A stretch of 24,284 bases of DNA from a virus. Where the stretch lies: positions 1 to 24,284 of IMG/VR virus record IMGVR_UViG_3300046449_000409. The stretch is one strand, 5' to 3'. The position numbers and the translations under genes are program-made. The notes under the pieces were generated by a model. That model saw only the letters and a program-made list of their open reading frames with translations. It made no database searches and was not told the DNA's origin. Below, piece by piece: positions 10,211-24,093 of the stretch; positions within the stretch are counted from its first letter, which is position 1; every line of letters begins with the position of its first letter.

Positions 10211-10414
10211 TCAAGTTCCCTTGCTAAACGTCGGGAAATGCTGGCGCGCACGTGGTTTGGCAGCCAATGCGCGTTCCATGACGGCGATTTGTGTGTGCAT
10301 TTCTTCCAGTGATCGATAGGTGATTTCTTCACCCACGGAATTGCGCAGTTTGGTGACGCCCTTGGCAGCCGCTGCCCGCAGATCATCCAGCTGTGTTTGT
10401 GTGTACTGTGTCAA
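10211..10414 (-). CDS. Head-tail connector gpW-like protein
   Basis: A small protein with TQTQLDDLRAAAAKGVTKLR, then YRSLEEMHTQIAVMERAL: a helix-turn-helix-like pattern ending in Y-R-S-x-E-E-M, the gpW signature. The best start is TTG at 10414, which overlaps the terminase stop and has AAGGA about 9 nt upstream; it gives 67 residues, nearly identical in length to lambda gpW (68). An upstream TTG at 10441 would add nine residues but has no ribosome site. gpW plugs the portal after packaging. Gene order terminase-gpW-portal matches lambda exactly. Confidence 0.85.
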   Translation of the reverse strand: MTQYTQTQLDDLRAAAAKGVTKLRNSVGEEITYRSLEEMHTQIAVMERALAAKPRARQHFPTFSKGT

Positions 10415-12549
10415 AACCAGTTTTTCCTTGGGTTGATCCAATCAGATGATCCGCGTGACTTGCGGGCCCCATGCGTTTCAGAGTGCATTGGTGTTGGCGT
10501 TTCAAAAGTCTCAGGTTCAATCGGCTCAGGCGCGCCAGTCCAAACCGCCACCGGATTGGTCGCGGCAAGCACAGCCCAACTGGGTGGATGCTTCCAGTTG
10601 ATACGCTCACCCTTGATCCAGATGTGTTTGGCGCGCGCCATAACGAGGTGATCAAGGCTTTCATTTCGCACCATGCCAGGGCGCTTTTCCCACCCTTTGG
10701 CCGTACGCCGCTCCGCTGTGAATTCCAGCAGTTCAGCTTCACTCATCCATTCCGCAATAGCGCAGTGATTTTGCCCTGCCTCAGTCAAACGCAAAGACGT
10801 GGCCACCGCATCTTTGATCCGGTCCGTTGCCATGTTCAGTGTCAAAATATCTTTGGCCACGCGTCGCTTGCCGCTGGCGCTTTCAGGCGCTTTCAACCAA
10901 ACGCGATCTTGCATATTGGCCCCAGACCGACCCCGCGTGATAAACCAACGATCTTGCTGCCCTGCCCGCTTGCGTCCTCGATAAAAGGAATAAGCGTTGT
11001 CAGTTGTCGCACCGCCACCTTGTTGATCCACGCTCAAGGCGATTGCCTTCAAGGACCACTCGCAGCCCTCAATCGGCCAAGACATATCCCCCAGAGCGAT
11101 CAGCACATCCCAATCTTCGGCAATTTCAAACGGTTTAAGCGTGCGCCCCTTGCCCTCAACGCCAACCCCCGGTGAACTTGCAGGCGGTGTATTCAGCTCA
11201 AATCTGTCGATTGGCTGGTGCCGACCCAATGCGCCCCATGCCGTTGCCCCGACAGAAAAATAGGTCCCTTGAACATCGACTTCGACGGTCACGTATTTAG
11301 TCCACGCCGGCGCAATGCCTTTCGGCATTTTGTTCCCGCGCGCTTTGTCTTTGAGGCCTTGCAACGTGACCTCCATGTCAGAGGTCGCACCACGCGGTTG
11401 ATAGGGGCGCGCCTGCCCCGTGTTCATGGCTGTTTTCAGGCTCTCTTCGTCGCCCGTAAGTTTGAACTTTCGCACCGCGCTCTCATATTGCGTCACAAGC
11501 TCTTTCCAGCTTGAGAATGATGCCGCAGCCCCGTCCAACCAGTAACTCAGCAGATCCGCACGGCGCACTTTGCCACTGGCCAAGGACGCTGTTTTCCCGT
11601 CATCCGTTTCATGCAACCAGCTGCCATGTTCATTGAGTTCGCGTTTGAGCACATGCTCGAACACATTCGCGCAATGTGGGCACCGCATAACCGCAGCTTC
11701 GCCCTGCTCCACCGGATCAAGACTGTCTGGATAGACAAGCAGATCAAACGTTGGCTCAAACAAAACACCGCAGCACGGGCATGGCCAATACCAACGGCCC
11801 CGCGTGCCTTCTGGATACAAAGACAGCACGCCATACTTCACCGGCGGACAATCGTGTGGCGTTTGAGGTCGCCACGTCTCATCCGTCAACGGCGCGCCAG
11901 GGCTGCTTTCGACAACAACCATGCCGCGCGACAGGAATGATCGCGCCCGTGCCCGCATTAACGTATAGGCATCCCCTTCGCCATCGATGCTTTCAGGGAA
12001 GTGATCGTAATCGGTCCCCAAGACCAAGCGGATAGAGGTCGAAGACAGTTTCGTAATTGTCGGCCAATCCAGCGTGAGTTGCGTGCCGCCCGAAAACAGC
12101 TTTTGGTACATGTTGTCAGCACCGCGCCCCGTTGCGAGGCGCTGTCTCAGCTCCGGACTGTTGCGAATTGTCGGCGCCAGCTTGTTGCGTTCGAATTCTG
12201 CTGCCGCATCCCGCGTCATCTGAAACAAAGCCACGCGCCCCGGATCACTCGCAATCGTATAGGCAATGGCAGCTTGCAGCATTTGCGTTTTACCCGATTG
12301 CGACGGGCCGCAAAATGCAAGGCCGCGGTACCGGCGAGAGGCAATCATATCGGTCGGCTCAACCATATATGGCGTCACATCGCGGCGAAACGGTTGCCAC
12401 TGGCCAGACACATTCACGCGCATATAACGCTCGGCAGCAGCTGTGACGCTGATTTGCTCAGCTGGTCTTAGCGATGGCAGCGCAATTTTGAGAGCTGATC
12501 TCGGATCCGTATAGGGTGGCAGTGGCTCATAATCGTGACGCATATTCAT
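10411..12549 (-). CDS. Terminase large subunit, lambda gpA family
   Basis: The start is set at the ATG at 12549, which has an AGGGGG ribosome element about 9 nt upstream and lies 15 nt after the small-terminase stop, giving 712 residues (lambda gpA is 641). The packaging ATPase domain has GPSQSGKT at 81-88 (Walker A-like) and LVLGTDYDHFPESIDGEGDA as the acidic/Walker B region. A zinc ribbon follows (CPCCG and CPHC), then the nuclease part with VDVQGTYFSVGATAWG and later YSFYRGRKR. This enzyme cuts the concatemer at cos sites and drives DNA into the prohead. The family implies cohesive ends, so a cos site should lie near the small terminase gene in the phage genome. Confidence 0.95.
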   Translation of the reverse strand: MNMRHDYEPLPPYTDPRSALKIALPSLRPAEQISVTAAAERYMRVNVSGQWQPFRRDVTPYMVEPTDMIASRRYRGLAFCGPSQSGKTQMLQAAIAYTIASDPGRVALFQMTRDAAAEFERNKLAPTIRNSPELRQRLATGRGADNMYQKLFSGGTQLTLDWPTITKLSSTSIRLVLGTDYDHFPESIDGEGDAYTLMRARARSFLSRGMVVVESSPGAPLTDETWRPQTPHDCPPVKYGVLSLYPEGTRGRWYWPCPCCGVLFEPTFDLLVYPDSLDPVEQGEAAVMRCPHCANVFEHVLKRELNEHGSWLHETDDGKTASLASGKVRRADLLSYWLDGAAASFSSWKELVTQYESAVRKFKLTGDEESLKTAMNTGQARPYQPRGATSDMEVTLQGLKDKARGNKMPKGIAPAWTKYVTVEVDVQGTYFSVGATAWGALGRHQPIDRFELNTPPASSPGVGVEGKGRTLKPFEIAEDWDVLIALGDMSWPIEGCEWSLKAIALSVDQQGGGATTDNAYSFYRGRKRAGQQDRWFITRGRSGANMQDRVWLKAPESASGKRRVAKDILTLNMATDRIKDAVATSLRLTEAGQNHCAIAEWMSEAELLEFTAERRTAKGWEKRPGMVRNESLDHLVMARAKHIWIKGERINWKHPPSWAVLAATNPVAVWTGAPEPIEPETFETPTPMHSETHGARKSRGSSDWINPRKNWF

Positions 12550-12563
12550 GATCACCGCCCCCT

Positions 12564-13262
12564 TCAAATGGTCCACTGCCGTTGCACCTCAACATCTTCA
12601 ACGTCGCGTTCACTCAGTTCCTTTTCCTCAATTATTTCACCCAAAGACGAGAGTAGATCTGCGCCAATCCGTTGCACTTTATCCACCTCGGCAGGTTTCA
12701 ATGACAATTCACGCTCAAGCACGTCAGGCATCGCTTCGATCTTGTCTCTGACCATCGAAAATATGGACTCGATCATCTCAACAACATCATCCAGTTGCAC
12801 CAGTTGCCGGCGCATATGCATGGCTTTGCTGTGCGCAATATCCGCCTGCGCCAGGGCCGCGCGTTCTTTTGCCGAAAGAGCCGCACGTGGATCCGAAACA
12901 TCGAGGCCTAAAAAGCTCGCTTGCAACGCATTGATTTGATCTGCGCTATGGGCGCGGCGTTGATGTTCTTCATGGTCGCGCGCACATTTCCATGCCCAGC
13001 AATGCGACAATCGCAGCACATAGGCTTTGCCGTTTTTTCCCTCTTGCACGACAGGCATATTCTCGGACGATATCCACTTTGAAATGCTGTTGACCGATGT
13101 GTTCAATGCCGCTGCCATCTCTGACTGGTTCATGTCGGCATCGCTGACACCTTCCGGTAGAGGGTGTTTTTCGAGCAAAACGGCAAGGCCAGCATCAAAG
13201 TCGATCGACATCATTTTTGGAGCGTCATTGTCAGACTGGCCACGATCAGGGACATCTGGCAC
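12564..13262 (-). CDS. Terminase small subunit, Nu1-like
   Basis: The start is set at GTG 13262 (VPDVPDRGQSDNDAPKMMSI), which has AAAGGA about 8 nt upstream and gives 232 residues; a longer frame begins in a GTTGTT repeat coding for Cys-rich sequence and has no support. The N-terminal part contains an HTH, MNQSEMAAALNTSVNSISKW, then MPVVQEGKNGKAYVLRLS, typical of Nu1/DUF1441 DNA-packaging proteins that recognise cos DNA. The C-terminal half is helical and acidic, ending EDVEVQRQWTI, suited to binding the large subunit. It is the first gene of the head operon. Confidence 0.82.
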   Translation of the reverse strand: MPDVPDRGQSDNDAPKMMSIDFDAGLAVLLEKHPLPEGVSDADMNQSEMAAALNTSVNSISKWISSENMPVVQEGKNGKAYVLRLSHCWAWKCARDHEEHQRRAHSADQINALQASFLGLDVSDPRAALSAKERAALAQADIAHSKAMHMRRQLVQLDDVVEMIESIFSMVRDKIEAMPDVLERELSLKPAEVDKVQRIGADLLSSLGEIIEEKELSERDVEDVEVQRQWTI

Positions 13263-13322: not shown

Positions 13323-13367
13323 AAAAAAAACGCGCACAAATCGGGGTGCGAATTACCCCTGTACGCG
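13323..13367 (-). terminator. Intrinsic terminator after the isolated tail-associated gene
   Basis: On the minus strand CGCGTAC (13367-13361) pairs with GTGCGCG (13337-13331, one G-U), and inside it AGGGGT pairs with ACCCC; eight T follow at 13330-13323. It sits just after the stop at 13393 and before the small terminase gene, so unmodified polymerase would stop ahead of the head operon. Confidence 0.75.
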
Positions 13368-13392: not shown

Positions 13393-14094
13393 TTAGCTGC
13401 GGGCCATGACCTTCTGAAACGTGCGCTCAAAGTGAATAGGAAACCGTTTTTCAAAGACCTCTTCGGCCCCATCATAAAAGCCAAGCCGAGGATCATACTT
13501 CGGCATCGCAGTCGTAAAGTTTAATATCTTCGTCAGGTTGCGTTTAGCGTCACGCTTCCACACCCCCGCAGACAGGCTTGATCCTGATCTCGGCACAAAA
13601 TATCCAACGCGGCTCTTTCGCTTGGCCTTCGATGCCGCCGTGCTATTGCTGTGCGCGTCACGTTGGGACTGAACCGCCGAGAGCACTTGATTGCGCTCGC
13701 CTGCAGACCATTTGCCATACGAAACCCGCTTGGCATCCCTGGTCGGAATGACGCCATGAATTTGTCCGTCATACGCCAACTTGGCAGACATCAAGGTCTC
13801 AAGCCCTGTTTGAGGCCGCACGCCGCCAGCTTCTTGGATTTTCAAAAAGTGACGTTTACCAACCGAAGGCCGCTCTTTGACCTCTGCCAGCATTGTAGAT
13901 TTCGTGGCCCGCCAAACCATAAACGCATTGAGCGCCCATGGCGTTGGATCATCGAACACGACTTTCATGCGATCTTGGATGTGTTCAAGTGCATCAGCCG
14001 CCGCATCATTCAATGCCCACATCGCAGCCGTTGGAACATGCTGCTTTTGTGCGCGGCTCATACCGCGTGACAGATCAGACGCATCTACATTCAT
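13393..14094 (-). CDS. Phage protein resembling minor tail protein Z, in an isolated unit
   Basis: The start is set at ATG 14094 (MNVDASDLSRGMSRAQKQHV), giving 233 residues; a GGAGG element lies about 14 nt upstream, and GTG codons closer to it are alternatives. The protein has HVPTAAMWALNDAAADALEH, then a basic region SKAKRKSRVGYFVPRSGSSL, AGVWKRDAKRNLTKILNFT and KYDPRLGFYDGAEEVFEKRF. The early A-x-x-ALN-x-A-A-x-A and late G-V-W-K-R, L-F, and P-x-x-x-F pattern resembles gpZ-like tail completion proteins, but I cannot confirm the family. It is odd to find it upstream of the terminase genes and bounded by terminators on both sides, so it may also be an independently acquired gene (moron). Confidence 0.5.
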   Translation of the reverse strand: MNVDASDLSRGMSRAQKQHVPTAAMWALNDAAADALEHIQDRMKVVFDDPTPWALNAFMVWRATKSTMLAEVKERPSVGKRHFLKIQEAGGVRPQTGLETLMSAKLAYDGQIHGVIPTRDAKRVSYGKWSAGERNQVLSAVQSQRDAHSNSTAASKAKRKSRVGYFVPRSGSSLSAGVWKRDAKRNLTKILNFTTAMPKYDPRLGFYDGAEEVFEKRFPIHFERTFQKVMARS

Positions 14095-14130
14095 TGTAAA
14101 CACAGCCACCTCCACCAATGTTAGAAAGCA

Positions 14131-14168
14131 CCACAAACAAAAACGCCCTATCGTTTCCGATGGGCGTT
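14131..14168 (-). terminator. Strong intrinsic terminator downstream of the Q-like gene
   Basis: The minus strand has AACGCCCATCG, a GAAA tetraloop, and CGATAGGGCGTT (11 pairs with one bulged A), followed by a T-rich TTTGTTTG tract. It ends about 70 nt after a candidate promoter at 14207-14236 and about 85 nt after the stop of the Q-like gene. This layout matches the pR'-tR' late control of lambda, where the terminator is overcome by antitermination. Confidence 0.8.
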
Positions 14169-14206
14169 ACCGATGCGCGCTGGACGCATTTAGTGATGAT
14201 GATGTA

Positions 14207-14236
14207 TCTGTAGTATTTCGTTGACCAAACCGTCAA
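14207..14236 (-). promoter_or_regulatory. Candidate late promoter with palindromic -35 region
   Basis: On the minus strand TTGACG (14236-14231) is followed by TACTAC after 15 nt or TACAGA after 18 nt, so a start near 14200 is plausible. The -35 lies in an inverted repeat TTGAC-N6-GTCAA (14221-14236), a possible binding site. It is placed immediately after the Q-like gene and before a terminator. The -10 is weak and the call is tentative. Confidence 0.4.
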
Positions 14237-14251
14237 TACCTATTTTTGCCA

Positions 14252-15037
14252 TTAGCCTCCATAACCCTGCATGCGATCCAGAGCCCCGCGCAGCGCCACC
14301 CTAAGGGCCAACAGGTTGCGTGAGCTTTTTGACCAATCATATTTGCCCAAAACCTCACTCAGAGACAGCCCGTGCAAACACACCATGCGCACCACATCCA
14401 AGTCCGAGATCATCCCGCAAACCCGCCCGTCACCGCGCTTGGATGGACGCACCTTTCGCAAAGCCATCGCCACACCGCGACCAACCTTGCGCTCAAGTGC
14501 CTCGAACTCTTGCCGCGCAGCCAGTCGCAGATCAACAGCATCCAAGCCACCGGCACCACCAGACACACGATCCTCAACATAGGACGTGCCGCCAACGCCA
14601 CCACTGTGCAGGCTCTCGTGCAACCCAGCATAGTAGCGCGCCATCGACACCTGCCCTGCGTTGAACGGTTCCTCAAACACAGCTTTCGCATCTTTTGCTT
14701 TCGCCTTGGCATGCACGTTGAGCGCCTTTGCCCGCATCATGTCAAACACATCGCAGCGGTGCATTACCGAGCGCCCGAAATGGCCTGCATGTTGAAACTT
14801 ATCCGTTGAGCCTGGTACGAGCTCTTTCGGGTCGCTGATCCGCACAGCGCCCCGTGCGGGCGCGTTTGGCACTTCAGGTCCACATTGCGCAGGCGCAGCC
14901 CCAGCGGCCTTGATCTTGGCCACGCGGCCCGCTTCAGCACGCAACCGTGCCACACCATCGCTGCCAACCATGATCACCGCATTGCCCGTTTGCGTTTTCA
15001 AAGCGCGTTCCATCAACATCTCTTCACCCTGCCTCAT
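14252..15037 (-). CDS. Candidate late-gene regulator (Q-like position, C-terminal HTH)
   Basis: The start is set at ATG 15037 (MRQGEEMLMERALKTQTGNA) with AAAGG 8 nt upstream, giving 261 residues; ATG 15043 is too close to the ribosome site. The middle holds FNAGQVSMARYYAGLHESLH, then a helical domain LRLAARQEFEALERKVGRGV, and the C-terminus has DLDVVRMVCLHGLSLSEVLG followed by LALRVALRGALDRMQ. This end looks like a DNA-binding HTH related in style to Q or DUF6456-type phage regulators. The key support is place: last gene before a promoter, a terminator and the late operon. It could act by antitermination or as a transcription activator; sequence alone does not decide. Confidence 0.5.
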   Translation of the reverse strand: MRQGEEMLMERALKTQTGNAVIMVGSDGVARLRAEAGRVAKIKAAGAAPAQCGPEVPNAPARGAVRISDPKELVPGSTDKFQHAGHFGRSVMHRCDVFDMMRAKALNVHAKAKAKDAKAVFEEPFNAGQVSMARYYAGLHESLHSGGVGGTSYVEDRVSGGAGGLDAVDLRLAARQEFEALERKVGRGVAMALRKVRPSKRGDGRVCGMISDLDVVRMVCLHGLSLSEVLGKYDWSKSSRNLLALRVALRGALDRMQGYGG

Positions 15038-15053
15038 GTTCATTGCCTTTATT

Positions 15054-15632
15054 TCAAACCGCGCCCGCGTCACTCTGCGCCAAACCTTCGCACTTACGCA
15101 TCGCTGCGATGCGTTTGTCGCGCCAGCCTGCATCGATGACCGAGACGCTTTCCGCCCGCGCCAGCCGCCGTTCTATGTTTTGTTGACGATCGCGCGCGCC
15201 CTTGGCACTGTCCAAAATACGCTTCAACGCAAACTCAGTTGGCCAGCGGCGCGACTTGCGCAGGTCCACCAGCAACTCAGGGGCCCAATCGTCGCGCACA
15301 GCGCCCTTGCCCAGATCATGGGCGAACACGGCGCGGATCAAAGGCGAGTTGCTCTCATCCGGACGCTGGATCACAGCCGCCCATTCCAGCAGTTTGTTTG
15401 CGATCGGAAAGCGGTCGTGGTCTTTGCCGCTGGGGCTGGCCGCCGCCTGCTCTTCCAGCGCCGCCAAGTTCACATCGCTCATGTAGGCCAGCCGCGCGCA
15501 CAAATCTTGCACCATGTCCTCGAACTGATCTTTGGTCAGGCTGGACGGCTTGGTCAGCCCGCGTCGCAACAGTGGCGTCACCACCTGTTCTCTCACGCGC
15601 TTCTCGCCTGCGGCTTGTTCTGCACTGTTCAT
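15054..15632 (-). CDS. Unrecognised phage protein between origin and Q-like gene
   Basis: A 192-residue, soluble, charged protein (MNSAEQAAGEKRVREQVVTP, then SSLTKDQFEDMVQDLCARLA and FAHDLGKGAVRDDWAPELLV) with no signal peptide or membrane segment. I recognise no domain. It ends 16 nt before the Q-like gene, has an AGGTGA ribosome element, and its promoter region would be the repeat-rich non-coding stretch that I propose as the origin. Its middle, with helices spaced by W-x-x-x and RKSRRWPTEFALKRI, could be DNA-binding, but that is only an impression. A role in replication or late control is inferred from neighbours. Confidence 0.65.
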   Translation of the reverse strand: MNSAEQAAGEKRVREQVVTPLLRRGLTKPSSLTKDQFEDMVQDLCARLAYMSDVNLAALEEQAAASPSGKDHDRFPIANKLLEWAAVIQRPDESNSPLIRAVFAHDLGKGAVRDDWAPELLVDLRKSRRWPTEFALKRILDSAKGARDRQQNIERRLARAESVSVIDAGWRDKRIAAMRKCEGLAQSDAGAV

Positions 15633-15831: not shown

Positions 15832-16458
15832 TTAGGGCCGTCGCATACCGAGATCAAGCATGTGGTCGGACCAAGATCGCAACGCGCCCTCGATGACGCT
15901 TGAATTGCGATAGGCCACGCCCTGCTTGACCAAATACTCGTCAATCCAGCGCACAGCGGCATCATTCTCAACGAGCTTGGCGTCATAGCCTGCCAGCGTT
16001 GATCTCAACCGCTGCAAGCGTTTGGCGGCATTGGCGGCCTCGTTTCTGGCGCGATTGTCTTCGCGCCGCGACATCGCCTCATTGAGCGTGCGCAAGACCT
16101 GACTGTGCATCAAGCGCACCTCGCCGCCATCGCATTCGCACTGCACCCAATTGTGCAGCGGACCAAATGGCAGCTTGCACAAGGCTTCAAAGTGCCCGCG
16201 ATCCACCATCAGGATCTTGGCCAGAATGGCGAGGTCTGTCGGCAAAGTGCCAACCGGCGCTTGATCGTAAGAGATCCAGATCAAATCGAGATAGAGCGCG
16301 CGGCATTCTGGCGTGCCTTGCAATCGCATTCCAGAATTGAGCCACCGTCTGCGTTCCCAAGCGACAAAGAAATGGCTGTCGAGCCGGTTCTCAGCCCCAT
16401 AAGGATACAAAGGCAGCTCAACGCCAGACGTCCCACCGACAATTTGAAACGCATTCAT
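15832..16458 (-). CDS. DUF1376 (YdaU-like) phage replication-associated protein
   Basis: A 208-residue protein. Residues about 28-110 (DSHFFVAWERRRWLNSGMRL, ALYLDLIWISYDQAPVGTLP, LAKILMVDRGHFEALC) have the winged-helix pattern of DUF1376/YdaU: an early W-x-x-S/T-x-x-L region, L-Y-x-D-L-I/L-x-x-x-Y, then P-x-D and L-A-K/R-I-L. Such domains open phage replication-initiator-like proteins. The C-terminal half is helical (NEAANAAKRLQRLRSTLAGY). The start overlaps the stop of the previous gene as ATGA. The candidate origin follows its 3' end, which fits a role in recruiting host replication proteins. Confidence 0.7.
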   Translation of the reverse strand: MNAFQIVGGTSGVELPLYPYGAENRLDSHFFVAWERRRWLNSGMRLQGTPECRALYLDLIWISYDQAPVGTLPTDLAILAKILMVDRGHFEALCKLPFGPLHNWVQCECDGGEVRLMHSQVLRTLNEAMSRREDNRARNEAANAAKRLQRLRSTLAGYDAKLVENDAAVRWIDEYLVKQGVAYRNSSVIEGALRSWSDHMLDLGMRRP

Positions 16459-17781: not shown

Positions 17782-17803
17782 CCATGTCCCAAATTTATAA
17801 AAA

Positions 17804-17817
17804 GGGTATATATTCCC
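17804..17817. promoter_or_regulatory. Operator site 3 (repressor side)
   Basis: GGGTATATATTCCC fits the GGG-N8-CCC pattern and ends two bases before the repressor ATG at 17820, so occupancy would shut down repressor expression, like lambda OR3. It is followed by ATATGGA, as is the site at 18889-18902. Confidence 0.55.
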
Positions 17818-17819
17818 AT

Positions 17820-18461
17820 ATGGAAGCATCATTTAAAAACGCGCTTGAATACGCACTTACCCACACAGGTCGCTCACTGAGAAACGTCGCACTAGAAGCA
17901 GACGTTTCTTACGAGCAACTGAAGTCACTGATGCAGGGAAAATCCAAAACCACAAACGTCGACGATGGAATTAAGGTGGCAAATGCTTTTGGCGTTGCAG
18001 TTGAGGACTTCATCAAAGGCAACCTAACCCCTCGCGAGACGGAGACAATTGCAGTAGCAGGCAAAGTTGGCGCTGGCGCGAAAGTCCAACTTTCAGACCC
18101 ACACCCCAAGGGCGAAGGCATGTATCAAATCGCCTGCCCACCTCAAATCGGCCCGCGGGGCATTGTCGCAGTTGAAGTCTGCGGAAACTCTATGGAACCC
18201 GCCTATGAAGATGGCGACATTTTGTTTTATTCACGCGACACACTTGGCGTTCCAACCGAAGCCATCGGGCGCAGATGTGTCGTTGAAACCACCGACGGCA
18301 TGGTCTGGGCCAAACTCCTACGCCGCCGCGACGGCCAGCCAGAGGGCCTATTTGACCTGATCTCATTCCACGCCGACACCCCACCAATGTACGACGCCAC
18401 CATAAAATGGGCCGCCCCCATCAAGATGCACCTGGGTAAAGATTTGATCTCAAGAATGTAA
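17820..18461 (+). CDS. CI-type repressor, HTH plus LexA-like S24 autoprotease
   Basis: From ATG 17820 the protein is 213 residues; an in-frame ATG at 17784 would add twelve with the unlikely start MSQIYKKGIYSH. The N-terminal HTH spans about residues 18-45 (GRSLRNVALEADVSYEQLKS). The linker has IAVAGKVGAG, with a probable Ala80-Gly81 self-cleavage bond. The C-terminal S24 domain has Ser124 in CGNSMEPAYEDGD and Lys165 in MVWAKLLRR, spaced as in LexA and CI. It should hold the lysogen by binding the GGG-N8-CCC operators and be inactivated by RecA-stimulated cleavage in the SOS response. It is divergent from the Cro-like gene and read with the integration genes. Confidence 0.92.
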   Translation: MEASFKNALEYALTHTGRSLRNVALEADVSYEQLKSLMQGKSKTTNVDDGIKVANAFGVAVEDFIKGNLTPRETETIAVAGKVGAGAKVQLSDPHPKGEGMYQIACPPQIGPRGIVAVEVCGNSMEPAYEDGDILFYSRDTLGVPTEAIGRRCVVETTDGMVWAKLLRRRDGQPEGLFDLISFHADTPPMYDATIKWAAPIKMHLGKDLISRM

Positions 18462-20335: not shown

Positions 20336-20611
20336 ATGCAACCTTTACTCAAACCAGCTGATGCGGCCCACGTCTTAGGAGTCTGTACAAAAACCTTGCA
20401 AGAGTGCCGCAAACGCGGGCTAAAGTGTGTAAAAGTCGCGCGCGGAGCCATTCGATATCGGCAGGACGACATCATTGATTATATAGAGGCCCACTCTCAA
20501 TGCCATTTAGAACAGCCAAAACCCGCATCTATCAATACGACATCGTCGTCAAGGGTTGTCGCTTTCGAGGCAGTTGTGGCACCGAGGATTTCGAAGAAGC
20601 GAAAGCTATAG
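20336..20611 (+). CDS. Excisionase-like HTH protein
   Basis: A 91-residue protein whose first 55 residues form a MerR-like/AlpA-type winged HTH: LLKPADAAHVLGVCTKTLQE, then CRKRGLKCVKVARGAIRYRQ and DDIIDYIEAHS. The L-x-x-x-x-A-A-x-x-L-G-V-x-x-x-T-L start and R-Y-x-x-D-D-I-x-x-Y-I end are the HTH_17/excisionase pattern. It lies directly before the integrase and its last 112 bp overlap it in another frame. It should bend attachment-site DNA and steer the integrase toward excision, or regulate integrase expression. A purine-rich AAAGGG lies about 12 nt before the ATG. The Ser/Lys-rich C-terminus is encoded in the overlap. Confidence 0.78.
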   Translation: MQPLLKPADAAHVLGVCTKTLQECRKRGLKCVKVARGAIRYRQDDIIDYIEAHSQCHLEQPKPASINTTSSSRVVAFEAVVAPRISKKRKL

Positions 20612-21591
20612 AGGCGCAAATTCGTGCCAACGCGCAATCACTCAGCAAATCAAGCGGCTCGTACACGCTATCCGAAGCACTTGGCACCTATCACCGCGAC
20701 AAGATCATCGGAACATCGTCTGAATCAACCAATGCAGGTCAGGCACGCGCCATCTTGAAGTATATGGATGGCAATCAATCCATTTCAAAAATCACCGACG
20801 CTGATGTTTTGGCATATGTTGCCAAGGATCGCGCGCATTGCAAAAACGCGACCGTGAACCGTCGCCTTCAAATGCTGGGCCGTGCAATTCGCCATATGGG
20901 TAAGTTCTACAAGGCAGGCATCCCCGCTTTGGAACTCAAGGCTGCAGAAACTAAAGAGCCGCGAGAAATAGTCAGAGAGTTGACTATGGATGAGCAGCGC
21001 CGGCTGCTTGAACATCTGCCAGCCGAATATCATCCGATCGTTAGCTTCGCCCTCATGACCGGGGCACGCATTGGTTCCATTACGTCCCTATTGTGGGAAA
21101 ACATTGACATGGACAATCTAGAAATTTCGTTTTGGGTCAAAGGCGATGAACGCCTCACTTTCCCTATAAACCGCGAAGTCGCAGCACTGCTATCAGCCCT
21201 GCCACGCTCGAATATCCTTGCACACCGCAAATTTGTTTTCACGCGACTGAACAAGCAAACCATGGAACGCCAGCCAATCGATCCGCACGGCGGCATCCTT
21301 CCCGCGGCCTTCCGCAAAGCCCTAAAAGACGCCGAGATCGAGGCATTCAGGTTTCACGACCTAAGACACACCTTCGCAACGCGCCTGCTGCGCAAAACGC
21401 AAAACATCAAACTGGTATCAAAACTACTTGGCCACTCGAACATCGAAACAACAACAAAATATGCGCACGTCCTGATGGATGACATGCGAGATGCACTCGA
21501 TGATTTCAGTGTTTTAGGAAGCGGTCCAAAATCGACTAACGCGAAGCCGCTCAGTCAAACACGACACATGCAAAAGAAACGACCGATTTAG
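20500..21591 (+). CDS. int: Tyrosine recombinase, phage integrase
   Basis: A 363-residue integrase from ATG 20500 (GAGG 10 nt upstream). It has an N-terminal arm-binding region (RIYQYDIVVKGCRFRGSCGT), a core-binding SAM-like domain about residues 55-150, and a catalytic domain with Arg190 (TGARIGS), His286 and Arg289 (RFHDLRHTFATRLL), His312 (LLGHSNIETT) and the nucleophile Tyr321 (TTKYAHV), so all key residues are present. It catalyses site-specific integration and excision of the prophage. The attachment site is expected close to its 3' end; no tRNA gene is visible there. The C-terminal tail after 335 is basic and probably disordered. Confidence 0.95.
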   Translation: MPFRTAKTRIYQYDIVVKGCRFRGSCGTEDFEEAKAIEAQIRANAQSLSKSSGSYTLSEALGTYHRDKIIGTSSESTNAGQARAILKYMDGNQSISKITDADVLAYVAKDRAHCKNATVNRRLQMLGRAIRHMGKFYKAGIPALELKAAETKEPREIVRELTMDEQRRLLEHLPAEYHPIVSFALMTGARIGSITSLLWENIDMDNLEISFWVKGDERLTFPINREVAALLSALPRSNILAHRKFVFTRLNKQTMERQPIDPHGGILPAAFRKALKDAEIEAFRFHDLRHTFATRLLRKTQNIKLVSKLLGHSNIETTTKYAHVLMDDMRDALDDFSVLGSGPKSTNAKPLSQTRHMQKKRPI

Positions 21592-21777: not shown

Positions 21778-22470
21778 CTACAATTCCTGCAGTGCTGCAA
21801 CTAGTTGATGAACATTAGAAGAAGGGTTCATTTCTCCAGTTTCTTGTGCATCGATCAATGATTTTACCGCGTTGGCGATAGCATCATCAGTTACGTCATG
21901 AAGTTTACCCAACATTTGTTTTGTCAAAGACTTTTCGTAACCTTCAAAAGGCGAATGTTTTTTGAGTTCAGCAGTGACCATCTCTGCAGCGGTTTTCCCA
22001 CTTGCAGCGGAGAATGGCGACCGACTATACGCAAAATGAAGAAGGAGCCAATATTCGAAACATGGGTATGAAACGACTGCAACGATACGCTCGCCTTTGA
22101 ATGAGGACCCTCGTTTGTTCGCATTAGCAATTTGGCCAAGTGCTTTGTAGAAGTCCTTGTGATCATCTCGGTCGATTACGCAGTAGACGTCATTATAGCC
22201 ACCTTTACTATACGAACCCTCTGCATCGGCTCTGGCGATGGCATAACGTACCACAGCGGTGGGACTAGAGTCGCATTCTTTGCCGCATATATCGAGGTCG
22301 ACATTCACCAAGGCAAGAATGCGCTTCAGCTCCTCAAAGTACTGAACTTCTGTAACCTCTCCTTCTGTGACGATCAGTACACGCCGGTTAGGTGCAATCG
22401 TAGCAGGTCGCCGGGTAAGATTTTTTGTAGTTTTCCGTCTTTGAAACAGCTTGTCACTCCGCGCCGGCAT
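21778..22470 (-). CDS. RloB-like / AbiLii-like protein with TOPRIM-type motifs
   Basis: The start is set at ATG 22470 (MPARSDKLFQRRKTTKNLTR), with GGAGG 7 nt upstream, giving 230 residues and a 17-bp overlap with the ATPase gene. After a basic leader, RVLIVTEGEVTEVQYFEELK (Glu36-Glu41, EGxxTE) and VYCVIDRDDHKDF (Asp100, Asp102) match the two acidic motifs of TOPRIM-like RloB proteins. SYPCFEYWLLLHF (134-146) and a C-terminal NPSSNVHQLV are further RloB family features. Such proteins pair with AAA ATPases in AbiL and related anti-phage systems and probably act as the nuclease effector. Catalytic activity and substrate are inference. Confidence 0.85.
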   Translation of the reverse strand: MPARSDKLFQRRKTTKNLTRRPATIAPNRRVLIVTEGEVTEVQYFEELKRILALVNVDLDICGKECDSSPTAVVRYAIARADAEGSYSKGGYNDVYCVIDRDDHKDFYKALGQIANANKRGSSFKGERIVAVVSYPCFEYWLLLHFAYSRSPFSAASGKTAAEMVTAELKKHSPFEGYEKSLTKQMLGKLHDVTDDAIANAVKSLIDAQETGEMNPSSNVHQLVAALQEL

Positions 22471-23749
22471 CCTGCATCCTCCGGATGTTAGGAATCGCCC
22501 CAAATTTACCTCCAAGATAAGCACGTTGAAATGCTTCGACCTCTCTCACTTTGAAATCCGATAGCGGCGTAAGTTCTGTATTTTGACCATTTGGACGATG
22601 GATAAACCAGATTTGGTCTTTATGCATGAAGCTCTTCGAGATGATCGACGTTTCATGGCTCGTGAATATCAGCTGTGCTCCTTTTGGGTTTTGCCTCTTG
22701 TCGTGAAAAACACCGACCAGCCCTTTTAGCGCCAATGGATGAAGACTGTTGCTGAGCTCATCGATCAGGAGAGTATCCCCATCCTCAAGGACGTCAATGA
22801 TTGGCCCGGCCATACCAAACATTGCTTGGGTCCCATCGCTTTCTTCTTCCAAAGCAAGTTCGACCGTATCCCCTGCAATATTTCGATGCTTTGCAAATAC
22901 ACGATATTCTTTTTCGTCTTCCACCGTTTTGCTTAGCTCGGACAACATTTTTTCGGAGAGCATCTGCTTCACTTCCTCAGGGAGGACCGCCTGCTTCTCT
23001 TCCACACGAAAACCTTCAATTGGGAGATCGAGAGCCTGTATAAAATCCAAAACCTTCGCTCGGTACTGCTCATTTTGCAGAAATTGTGCAGTAAAATCTT
23101 TGCTGATTCTCTGGTTGGCACCAATAACGTGGACGCCCAACCGAATCCAATCGTAAGGTTTCTTCAGAGATTTGGAATTCAATTGTACCGCCGTAGAAAA
23201 AAACAGTGCATTGTCGCGCGTCGCCGCTCTCCAACTTTCGCGTTCTCCGGGCAGCTGTCCCTCGTTTAGCGCCCACTCGTAGCTTTGCGACACTTCATCA
23301 TATTCACGTGTGAAAATTGTGCGTGTCTTGCTACCATGTTTCGAAGTTCGGGCGAACAGCCATTCTTCGACTACCCGTTGATTGGTCAATGAGAATCCAT
23401 ACTGGAAGACTTCACCATCGTGAGAGAAAACCATCTCCATCGTAGTTGCAGCATCTTTACAATCCGGAGCAACCTTATTCTGAGGAAATTTAATCTCCTC
23501 TCCTTGGCTACCCTTCCTTGCTGAGTTGCACACAAAGTCAACAAAGAACGCCACAGCCTTGAACAATGAACTTTTACCAGATGCGTTTGGACCGAACACT
23601 ACAGCGCTAGTCAGTACATCTGGAGCAAGGGAATTCCCTGTTCCGAAGGAAATACCCGGCTGTTTCGTTGCAGCAGCGCTGGCGACAGCTGAAAAGGTAA
23701 CTGGTGCCGAGATCGACCTGTAGTTCGACACAGTAAATTCAATCAACAT
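22454..23749 (-). CDS. AAA/ABC-type ATPase, AbiLi-like (COG1106 type)
   Basis: The start is set at ATG 23749 (MLIEFTVSNYRSISAPVTFS), with GGAGA 8 nt upstream, giving 431 residues; the frame extends upstream without a ribosome site. It is an OLD/RecF-like ATPase: an N-terminal strand F-x-V-x-N-Y/F-R-S-I, Walker A GPNASGKS at 53-60, a signature-like EESDGTQAMFG near 303-313, Walker B LLIDELSNSLHP from 327, and an H-loop FTSHET with His365. A helical insertion lies between. It overlaps and is co-translated with the RloB-like gene, matching AbiLi-AbiLii gene order. It would act as the sensor/energy module of an abortive infection or nuclease system. Confidence 0.88.
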   Translation of the reverse strand: MLIEFTVSNYRSISAPVTFSAVASAAATKQPGISFGTGNSLAPDVLTSAVVFGPNASGKSSLFKAVAFFVDFVCNSARKGSQGEEIKFPQNKVAPDCKDAATTMEMVFSHDGEVFQYGFSLTNQRVVEEWLFARTSKHGSKTRTIFTREYDEVSQSYEWALNEGQLPGERESWRAATRDNALFFSTAVQLNSKSLKKPYDWIRLGVHVIGANQRISKDFTAQFLQNEQYRAKVLDFIQALDLPIEGFRVEEKQAVLPEEVKQMLSEKMLSELSKTVEDEKEYRVFAKHRNIAGDTVELALEEESDGTQAMFGMAGPIIDVLEDGDTLLIDELSNSLHPLALKGLVGVFHDKRQNPKGAQLIFTSHETSIISKSFMHKDQIWFIHRPNGQNTELTPLSDFKVREVEAFQRAYLGGKFGAIPNIRRMQDAGAE

Positions 23750-24093
23750 AGCGACATCTCCGATTAAACGTGAGGTTTTGCAAATTTTCTGCAATTTTAA
23801 CACTTTTCTCAGCGTTGCGTTAATTTTTGGTGAACTGCAACCCCTGTTTGTCTTTTTCGCTACGCAAATGGCCTTTTCTGTTTGTCCGTGTAAAAAACGC
23901 CCGCGAACGACACCACTTCTCTTCCACTCTATCTTTCCCAAAAGATCATAGCGTTGCACTCACCTGTTGAAACCGCCCCGCCGCATTGCAGTCACCTGAT
24001 TAGCTCAGGATGCTGCATGCAGCACTAACGGCAGCTTTCGTGAAAACAGCGTGTTGAATTTAGCTCAACTCGAACAACCGGTAAGGGCCGTAA
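23750..24093. other. Non-coding stretch upstream of the ATPase gene
   Basis: About 344 bp without a convincing gene. A weak minus-strand promoter candidate for the defence pair is TTAACG (23823-23818), 17 nt, TTAAAA (23800-23795). There is a near-identical 13-bp direct repeat TTGCASTCACCTG at 23954-23966 and 23986-23998 (12 of 13 match), and a perfect 14-bp palindrome TGCTGCATGCAGCA at 24011-24024. None is assigned a function; the repeats or palindrome could be regulatory or mark an element boundary. Confidence 0.35.

Follow-up and report, generated by a model that had tools for sequence, protein, structure and literature searches.

We propose that a 261-aa protein encoded between the replication genes and the terminase genes of a virus acts on the late operon of this phage as a processive antiterminator of the Q type, a reading to which we give a probability of about 0.8. 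The window, i.e. the whole stretch of DNA that was analysed (24,284 bases; IMG/VR virus record IMGVR_UViG_3300046449_000409), carries downstream of this gene a promoter candidate, a putative pause element and a terminator-like hairpin. This unit recurs with fixed spacing among phages in which the protein shows no more than 25-45% identity. The original prediction had likened the arrangement to the Q-pR'-tR' geometry of phage lambda and had suggested a new antiterminator or late activator of alphaproteobacterial phages. Conservation of the unit at fixed spacing supports the lambda-like geometry, and its recurrence in related phages is consistent with the second suggestion, as is the finding that neither the protein family nor its DNA element is described in the open-access literature (subscription journals lay outside the scope). 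The Q-like late switch is a well-supported prediction resting on comparative evidence.

Gene order and the proposed late promoter in the window

Comparison with PHROGs revealed an integrase (20500-21591) and a repressor (17784-18461) on the plus strand, followed on the minus strand by early genes, a replication-protein-like gene (15832-16458), a partner gene (15054-15632), the 261-aa gene (14252-15037) and the late block with genes for a minor tail protein, the small and large terminase subunits, portal, a protease-capsid fusion, tail proteins and the tape measure. We read the window, DNA of a marine bacterial virus, as that of a temperate siphophage of Pacificibacter, because the closest relatives of the 261-aa gene (83-89% identical) are found in two Pacificibacter marinus genomes. 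The first late gene (13393-14103, minus; start GTG at 14103 or ATG at 14094) encodes the minor tail protein (phrog_1924, 2.3e-46). It is followed by a second terminator-like hairpin with eight T (13333-13350, minus) and by the annotated genes for the small (12564-13244, minus) and large (10411-12576, minus) terminase subunits. Beyond the integrase, at 21778-23959 on the minus strand, lies an AbiLii and AbiLi-like pair (RloB/TOPRIM-like and AAA ATPase), which is likely to be anti-phage defence cargo.

The 261-aa gene (P0001) starts with ATG at 15037, has no internal stops and encodes a predicted sigma-region-4-like helix-turn-helix (HTH) at about residues 212-257, as expected for the HTH-ended gene originally described. 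The partner gene directly upstream encodes 192 aa without an assigned function; its product showed no Pfam match and no convincing PHROGs match. Relatives of it adjoin the Q-like gene directly upstream in 46 of the 62 viral loci that have enough sequence, and the protein may be a functional partner of the Q-like protein.

The promoter candidate noted earlier just downstream of the gene was found as a -35 hexamer TTGACG at 14231-14236 (minus), with 18 nt between the gene stop and TTGAC, and its TTGAC is invariant in relatives. A candidate -10 hexamer CTACAG (14208-14213, minus) follows after a 17-nt spacer and is weakly conserved in the family. A simple promoter scanner did not call a consensus sigma-70 promoter at this site, owing to the poor -10. 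Between the two hexamers, at 14218-14229 (minus), lies a candidate binding element for the Q-like protein (TTTGGTCAACGA; family consensus TTA-N3-C-N2-CCG), which was defined by column conservation and whose role is suggested by analogy with 21Q, AlpA and GafZ. The -10-like sequence CATCAT at 14196-14201 (minus) would occupy positions -1..+5 relative to the predicted start at 14200; YATCAT is nearly invariant 35-40 nt after TTGAC in the relatives, and PalpB of the AlpA system has CACGAT in the same place. The original prediction had also placed the promoter in a TTGAC-N6-GTCAA palindrome. This palindrome is exact at 14236-14221, but it stands at chance level (0.8 matches expected in the window with at most one mismatch) and its GTCAA half is kept in only 4 of 66 non-redundant relatives, so that we regard it as incidental and reject it as an operator.

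The GAAA-loop terminator expected about 70 nt past the start was located at 14138-14168 (minus). It consists of an 11-bp hairpin (14168-14142) with a T-rich tail, reads AACGCCCATCG-GAAA-CGATAGGGCGTT-TTTG, and resembles tR' in its placement; the hairpin is conserved in relatives. A leader of about 62-66 nt is predicted from this, which comes close to the original estimate of about 70 nt. Folding of the leader (+1..+68) gave -23.7 kcal/mol (z = -2.8), a value reached in 2 of 200 shuffles. A small extra leader hairpin (14173-14189, minus) was predicted by folding only in the window phage and its nearest relative.

Conservation of the element and its co-occurrence with the gene

Searches with the protein (tblastn) detected relatives in the records of Paracoccus phages Pthi1 and Psul1, Rhodobacter phage RcapNL, Microcystis phages Mae-JY02 and Mel-JY03 and Pseudanabaena phage Pan4. 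The gene lies just ahead of HNH/terminase genes in all five phages inspected; where replication genes are visible in these records, it comes after them. A relative is also present in 32 of 395 sampled Rhodobacteraceae genomes. Among 36 loci examined for the element, TTGAC and an ATCATC-type hexamer were correctly spaced in 29, degenerate in three and absent from four (L008, L020, L025, L036); no late genes are attached to element-less copies among those with surroundings examined. The recorded Microcystis phage Mae-JY02 and Pseudanabaena phage Pan4 carry a Rhodobacterales-type gene with the element, and the true host of both may be an alphaproteobacterium in non-axenic cultures.

Several element-less copies per genome were observed in G094, G088 and G314 (L147, L148, L149, L161, L162) and in G002 (L010-L016). 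Where their context is visible, they follow phage early or replication genes, with host-type genes beyond. Within a few hundred nt 3' of these copies there is a G-rich hairpin (GGGGGAGGGTC...), in most cases followed by a stretch like GAAAAAAGCCCAC. Since G094 and G314 additionally hold copies with the element, the element-less ones could be satellites carrying a late switch, or decayed prophages.

The whole of IMG/VR was also searched at the DNA level, blind to the protein, with the pattern TTGAC-N3-TA-...-ATCATC-N6..8-GCGCCC, in which a TTGAC-ATCATC distance of 34-38 was permitted. This search revealed 86 stretches representing 80 loci (L061-L140). The profile of the protein family matched an upstream ORF on the same strand at 77 of these 80 loci, and 74 of the ORFs end -8 to +59 nt from TTGAC. 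Two of the three loci without a gene match are cut off by the end of the available sequence, which begins within 70 nt of the element; the third has an unrelated long upstream ORF and only 2.2 kb of available upstream sequence. The gap between gene and element amounts to 417 nt in L071, 917 nt in L121 and 1545 nt in L113, and the element is intact in all three. Extra ORFs lie between the gene and the predicted late promoter in at least L071 and L113, and the gap in the three loci appears to be a cargo site ahead of the late switch. At the other extreme, the TGA stop of the gene is the TGA of the -35 TTGAC in 22 of the 77 viral loci, and the promoter begins inside the coding sequence in 10 further ones. 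For the looser motif TTGAC-N29..33-ATSATC, a count over both strands of 1.55 Mb of viral DNA gave 80 occurrences at the element and a single one away from it. Eight host genomes contain five occurrences of the DNA pattern and none of the pattern read backwards. It is conservation that raises the arrangement above chance.

An alignment of 58 non-redundant loci, in which the search pattern itself accounts in part for TTGAC, TA and ATCATC, showed an A-tract and a G-run ahead of the -35, followed by TTGAC and gcTTA, C at column 13, CC at 16-17, G at 18, a poor -10 near 23-28, Y at 35, ATCATC at 36-41, A at 45 and the hairpin from 49. The conserved promoter part can be written A-tract-GGGG-TTGAC-gcTTA-N3-C-N2-CCG; from its position between -35 and -10, TTA-N3-C-N2-CCG is a candidate protein-binding element. 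YATCAT is assigned to -1..+5 because the 17-nt spacer puts the predicted start at column 36. ATCATC follows TTGAC at a distance of 36 nt in 55 of the 66 non-redundant loci, the element is 55 long in 78 of 80 loci, and the hairpin starts 7 nt beyond ATCATC. A terminator-like hairpin is present in 64 of the 66 non-redundant loci, with G-U pairs contributing 41 of 776 pairs. The 27 protein-found loci, which are free of DNA-pattern bias, gave a mean hairpin z of -2.9. The hairpin starts at about +14 in most relatives versus +33 in the window; U-tracts are short in many relatives, and the -10 hexamer is poorly conserved across the family. Element spacing is fixed to the promoter and not to the gene, with a stop-to-TTGAC distance that varies from -8 to +59. 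Gene position, the element with its fixed spacing, the hairpin and the near-perfect co-occurrence of gene and element are direct observations on these sequences.

The protein family and its comparison with known antitermination systems

The family shares the motifs APARG, a PFTPGQV-GR-Y--L-ER block, R-RRIG and VRRVRPS, and a C-terminal block LVD-VC---LS-VL--HGW---ALR-AL--ALDRM. Searches of Pfam and PHROGs with the 261-aa protein and 27 relatives, and of NCBIfam with the 261-aa protein, revealed no Q-family match, and membership in the lambda Q, 21Q or 82Q families was rejected on this basis. The family profile had no match among PDB sequences, and an IMG/VR protein-only pattern scan built from the single sequence gave none either (its patterns were too specific). 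The earlier statement that the protein lies outside the known Q families therefore holds for these databases, but the family probably has relatives, namely DUF6456 of GafA and GafZ.

The AlphaFold model of the 261-aa protein (mean pLDDT 79, pTM 0.68) has a C-terminal half that ends in a sigma-region-4-type HTH. Its match to sigma region 4 (Z 6.6, 71 residues, 2.8 A) is at a level where only a common helical arrangement may be meant, and the same applies to its weak match to AlpA (Z 5.7, 97 residues, 4.3 A). Foldseek against the PDB gave no match with E < 0.001. For the comparison with lambda Q, 21Q and 82Q proposed earlier, the model thus provided the HTH and the weak AlpA match, but 21Q and lambda Q were absent from the VIA list for the window protein, an absence that is not exclusionary.

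Viral fold neighbours of the model include a DUF6456 phage protein, and viral fold searches yielded neighbours common to the window protein and the GafA domain. DUF6456 (PF20057) gave no match above the Pfam cut-off for the window protein, and one of 28 relatives matched at E 0.025. A profile alignment (hhalign) of the family with 12 DUF6456 domains gave E 7e-6 and a probability of 84.5 for 28 sequences, and E 1e-4 and a probability of 57 for a larger set; the reversed control gave E 0.3 and a probability of 0.2. In the AlphaFold models, the last helices comprise 18, 7, 15, 10, 8 and 19 residues in the GafA domain versus 18, 6, 19, 10, 7 and 19 in the window protein. A distant relationship of the C-terminal half to DUF6456, the domain of GafA and GafZ, is likely but not proven on these profile and model comparisons; by this relation the regulation of gene transfer agents (GTAs) belongs in the interpretation. 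Two DUF6456 outliers (L059, L060) proved to have no element downstream, L059 being followed by a host-like queC gene; a 'phage' DUF6456 match (MW462191) was set aside because it lies among chromosomal-type genes such as sufE.

The database matches of GafA were annotated as DUF6456 by Sherlock and Fogg (PMC9638019). GafZ of the Caulobacter crescentus GTA corresponds to the C-terminal part of Rhodobacter capsulatus GafA, binds the GTA promoter between -35 and -10 and gives terminator read-through (PMC11150451). Like the window protein, it is a regulator of an alphaproteobacterial late or structural operon with a sigma-like HTH, and it resembles the window family in profile (E 7e-6) and in the succession and approximate length of the last helices. 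GafZ is a shown antiterminator, whereas the window protein is a predicted one with a candidate site in the same position. Unlike the compared GafA domain, the window family has a conserved N-terminal half with APARG and a beta hairpin ahead of the HTH; no DnaA-like GafY partner was seen beside the window gene, the -35 is consensus in contrast to the GafZ system, and the terminator lies at +14 to +33 and not after the first gene.

The 21Q system depends on two DNA parts, a -10-like sequence within the initially transcribed region and a QBE that lies between -35 and -10 (PMC6606751). AlpA requires the -10-like CACGAT at -1..+5 and an element between -35 and -10, ahead of a downstream terminator, and antitermination is harmed by changing A+1 or T+5 of CACGAT (PMC9371919). 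The candidate promoter site, the -1..+5 element and the terminator lie in the same places in the window as in 21Q and AlpA, and the candidate site between -35 and -10 also agrees with GafZ; likeness to these layouts was not used in choosing the element. With 21Q, lambda Q and 82Q the window shares the order Q, late promoter, short leader, terminator and late genes, the -10-like element just past the start and, as proposed here, a site between -35 and -10, whereas sequence match is lacking, flanking genes differ and the function in the window is predicted. AlpA of Pseudomonas aeruginosa is similar in the exact -1..+5 position of its -10-like element (CACGAT versus YATCAT), in the downstream terminator and in the weak fold match. 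However, no sequence similarity to the window protein was found, AlpA acts on a lysis operon, and its element GGGACG differs from the sequence conserved in the window family. The 'transcription antiterminator' gp34 of the Sinorhizobium phage phiLM21 likewise belongs to an alphaproteobacterial temperate phage and precedes HNH and terminase genes, but it was rejected as a relative, being an unrelated NusG/RfaH-like protein with no comparable promoter-terminator seen downstream. We rate the window system as probably using the same logic as Q, AlpA and GafZ, but with another protein family and another sequence code.

The model of the GafA C-terminal domain (L047, mf57e1be79a7c) matched 21Q (Z 6.6, 110 residues, 4.6 A) and AlpA (Z 5.9), which contrasts with the report that GafZ has no structural similarity to known antiterminators (PMC11150451). 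In line with these matches, the window phage family and GafA/GafZ may form one superfamily in which GafZ would be a domesticated phage Q. The antiterminators 21Q, AlpA, GafZ and the window family, regarded so far as unrelated, would then share an ancestral nozzle-plus-sigma-4-HTH fold and a promoter code made up of a site between -35 and -10, a pause at -1..+5 and a terminator. We offer this only tentatively and lean slightly against it.

The proposed late switch and alternative explanations

In the switch that we propose, host RNA polymerase with the housekeeping sigma factor would start constitutively at the TTGAC promoter by the 3' end of the gene and pause after about 15 nt, owing to contacts of sigma region 2 with the -10-like YATCAT at -1..+5. 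If the protein is missing, the polymerase would resume, stop at the hairpin (about +14 in most relatives, +33 in the window) and free a leader of about 45-65 nt. The protein would be made last when the early operon runs; its C-terminal sigma-4-like HTH would bind between -35 and -10, and the protein would load onto the paused polymerase, which could then pass the leader terminator and those further downstream and so reach the tail, terminase and head genes. Processive read-through would be needed because a further T-rich terminator (13350-13333) separates the first late gene from the small terminase gene. We infer promoter activity, transcription, pausing, DNA binding, loading on RNA polymerase and read-through from comparison of these sequences.

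Q-type antitermination is favoured by the same-strand upstream homologue at 77 of 80 protein-blind loci, by the spacing that is fixed to the promoter even where an intact element lies 0.4-1.5 kb from the gene, by the kept hairpins, by a putative pause element placed as in AlpA and 21Q and a candidate binding site placed as in 21Q and GafZ, by the position of the gene between replication and HNH/terminase genes in annotated relatives, and by the sigma-4-like HTH with its weak AlpA match and the profile match to DUF6456. The poor -10 that the scanner does not call, the short U-tracts, the low-level fold matches and some element-less copies point against it. The HTH and the poor -10 would also suit a protein that activates initiation at the late promoter through -35 binding, like GafY or an alternative sigma factor, with the hairpin as nothing but a 5' structure of the mRNA, and the earliest account of GafA presented it as an activator that contacts the omega subunit (PMC9638019). 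We consider this improbable, since TTGAC fits the -35 consensus and leaves no obvious need for help with -35 binding, the terminator-like hairpin is held at a fixed distance past the start, and the conserved -10-like element at -1..+5 would have no role in simple activation.

That the hairpin terminates the early operon, after whose last gene it comes, and that TTGAC is either an independent, constitutive late promoter or a fortuitous match, without antitermination, is less probable still: the distance of the hairpin is fixed to TTGAC and ATCATC and not to the gene stop, a promoter-like site lies upstream of it, and the unit persists at 0.4-1.5 kb from the gene. A conserved short leader with a terminator could also be an attenuator controlled by a host factor, a small RNA or a ligand and not by the neighbouring protein; the near-perfect co-occurrence with one protein family and the lack of an Rfam match make this very improbable.

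Rhodobacterales phages are abundant in the sea, and to our knowledge the control of their late genes is largely unknown. Q-type antitermination by this family would provide a concrete late switch for proteins that are currently annotated as hypothetical, with the gene in 32 of 395 Rhodobacteraceae genomes and the exact pattern in 80 viral contigs. The 55-nt DNA signature would be usable to locate late promoters and the boundaries of late operons. The relation to DUF6456 further suggests an origin for the antiterminator of gene transfer agents.
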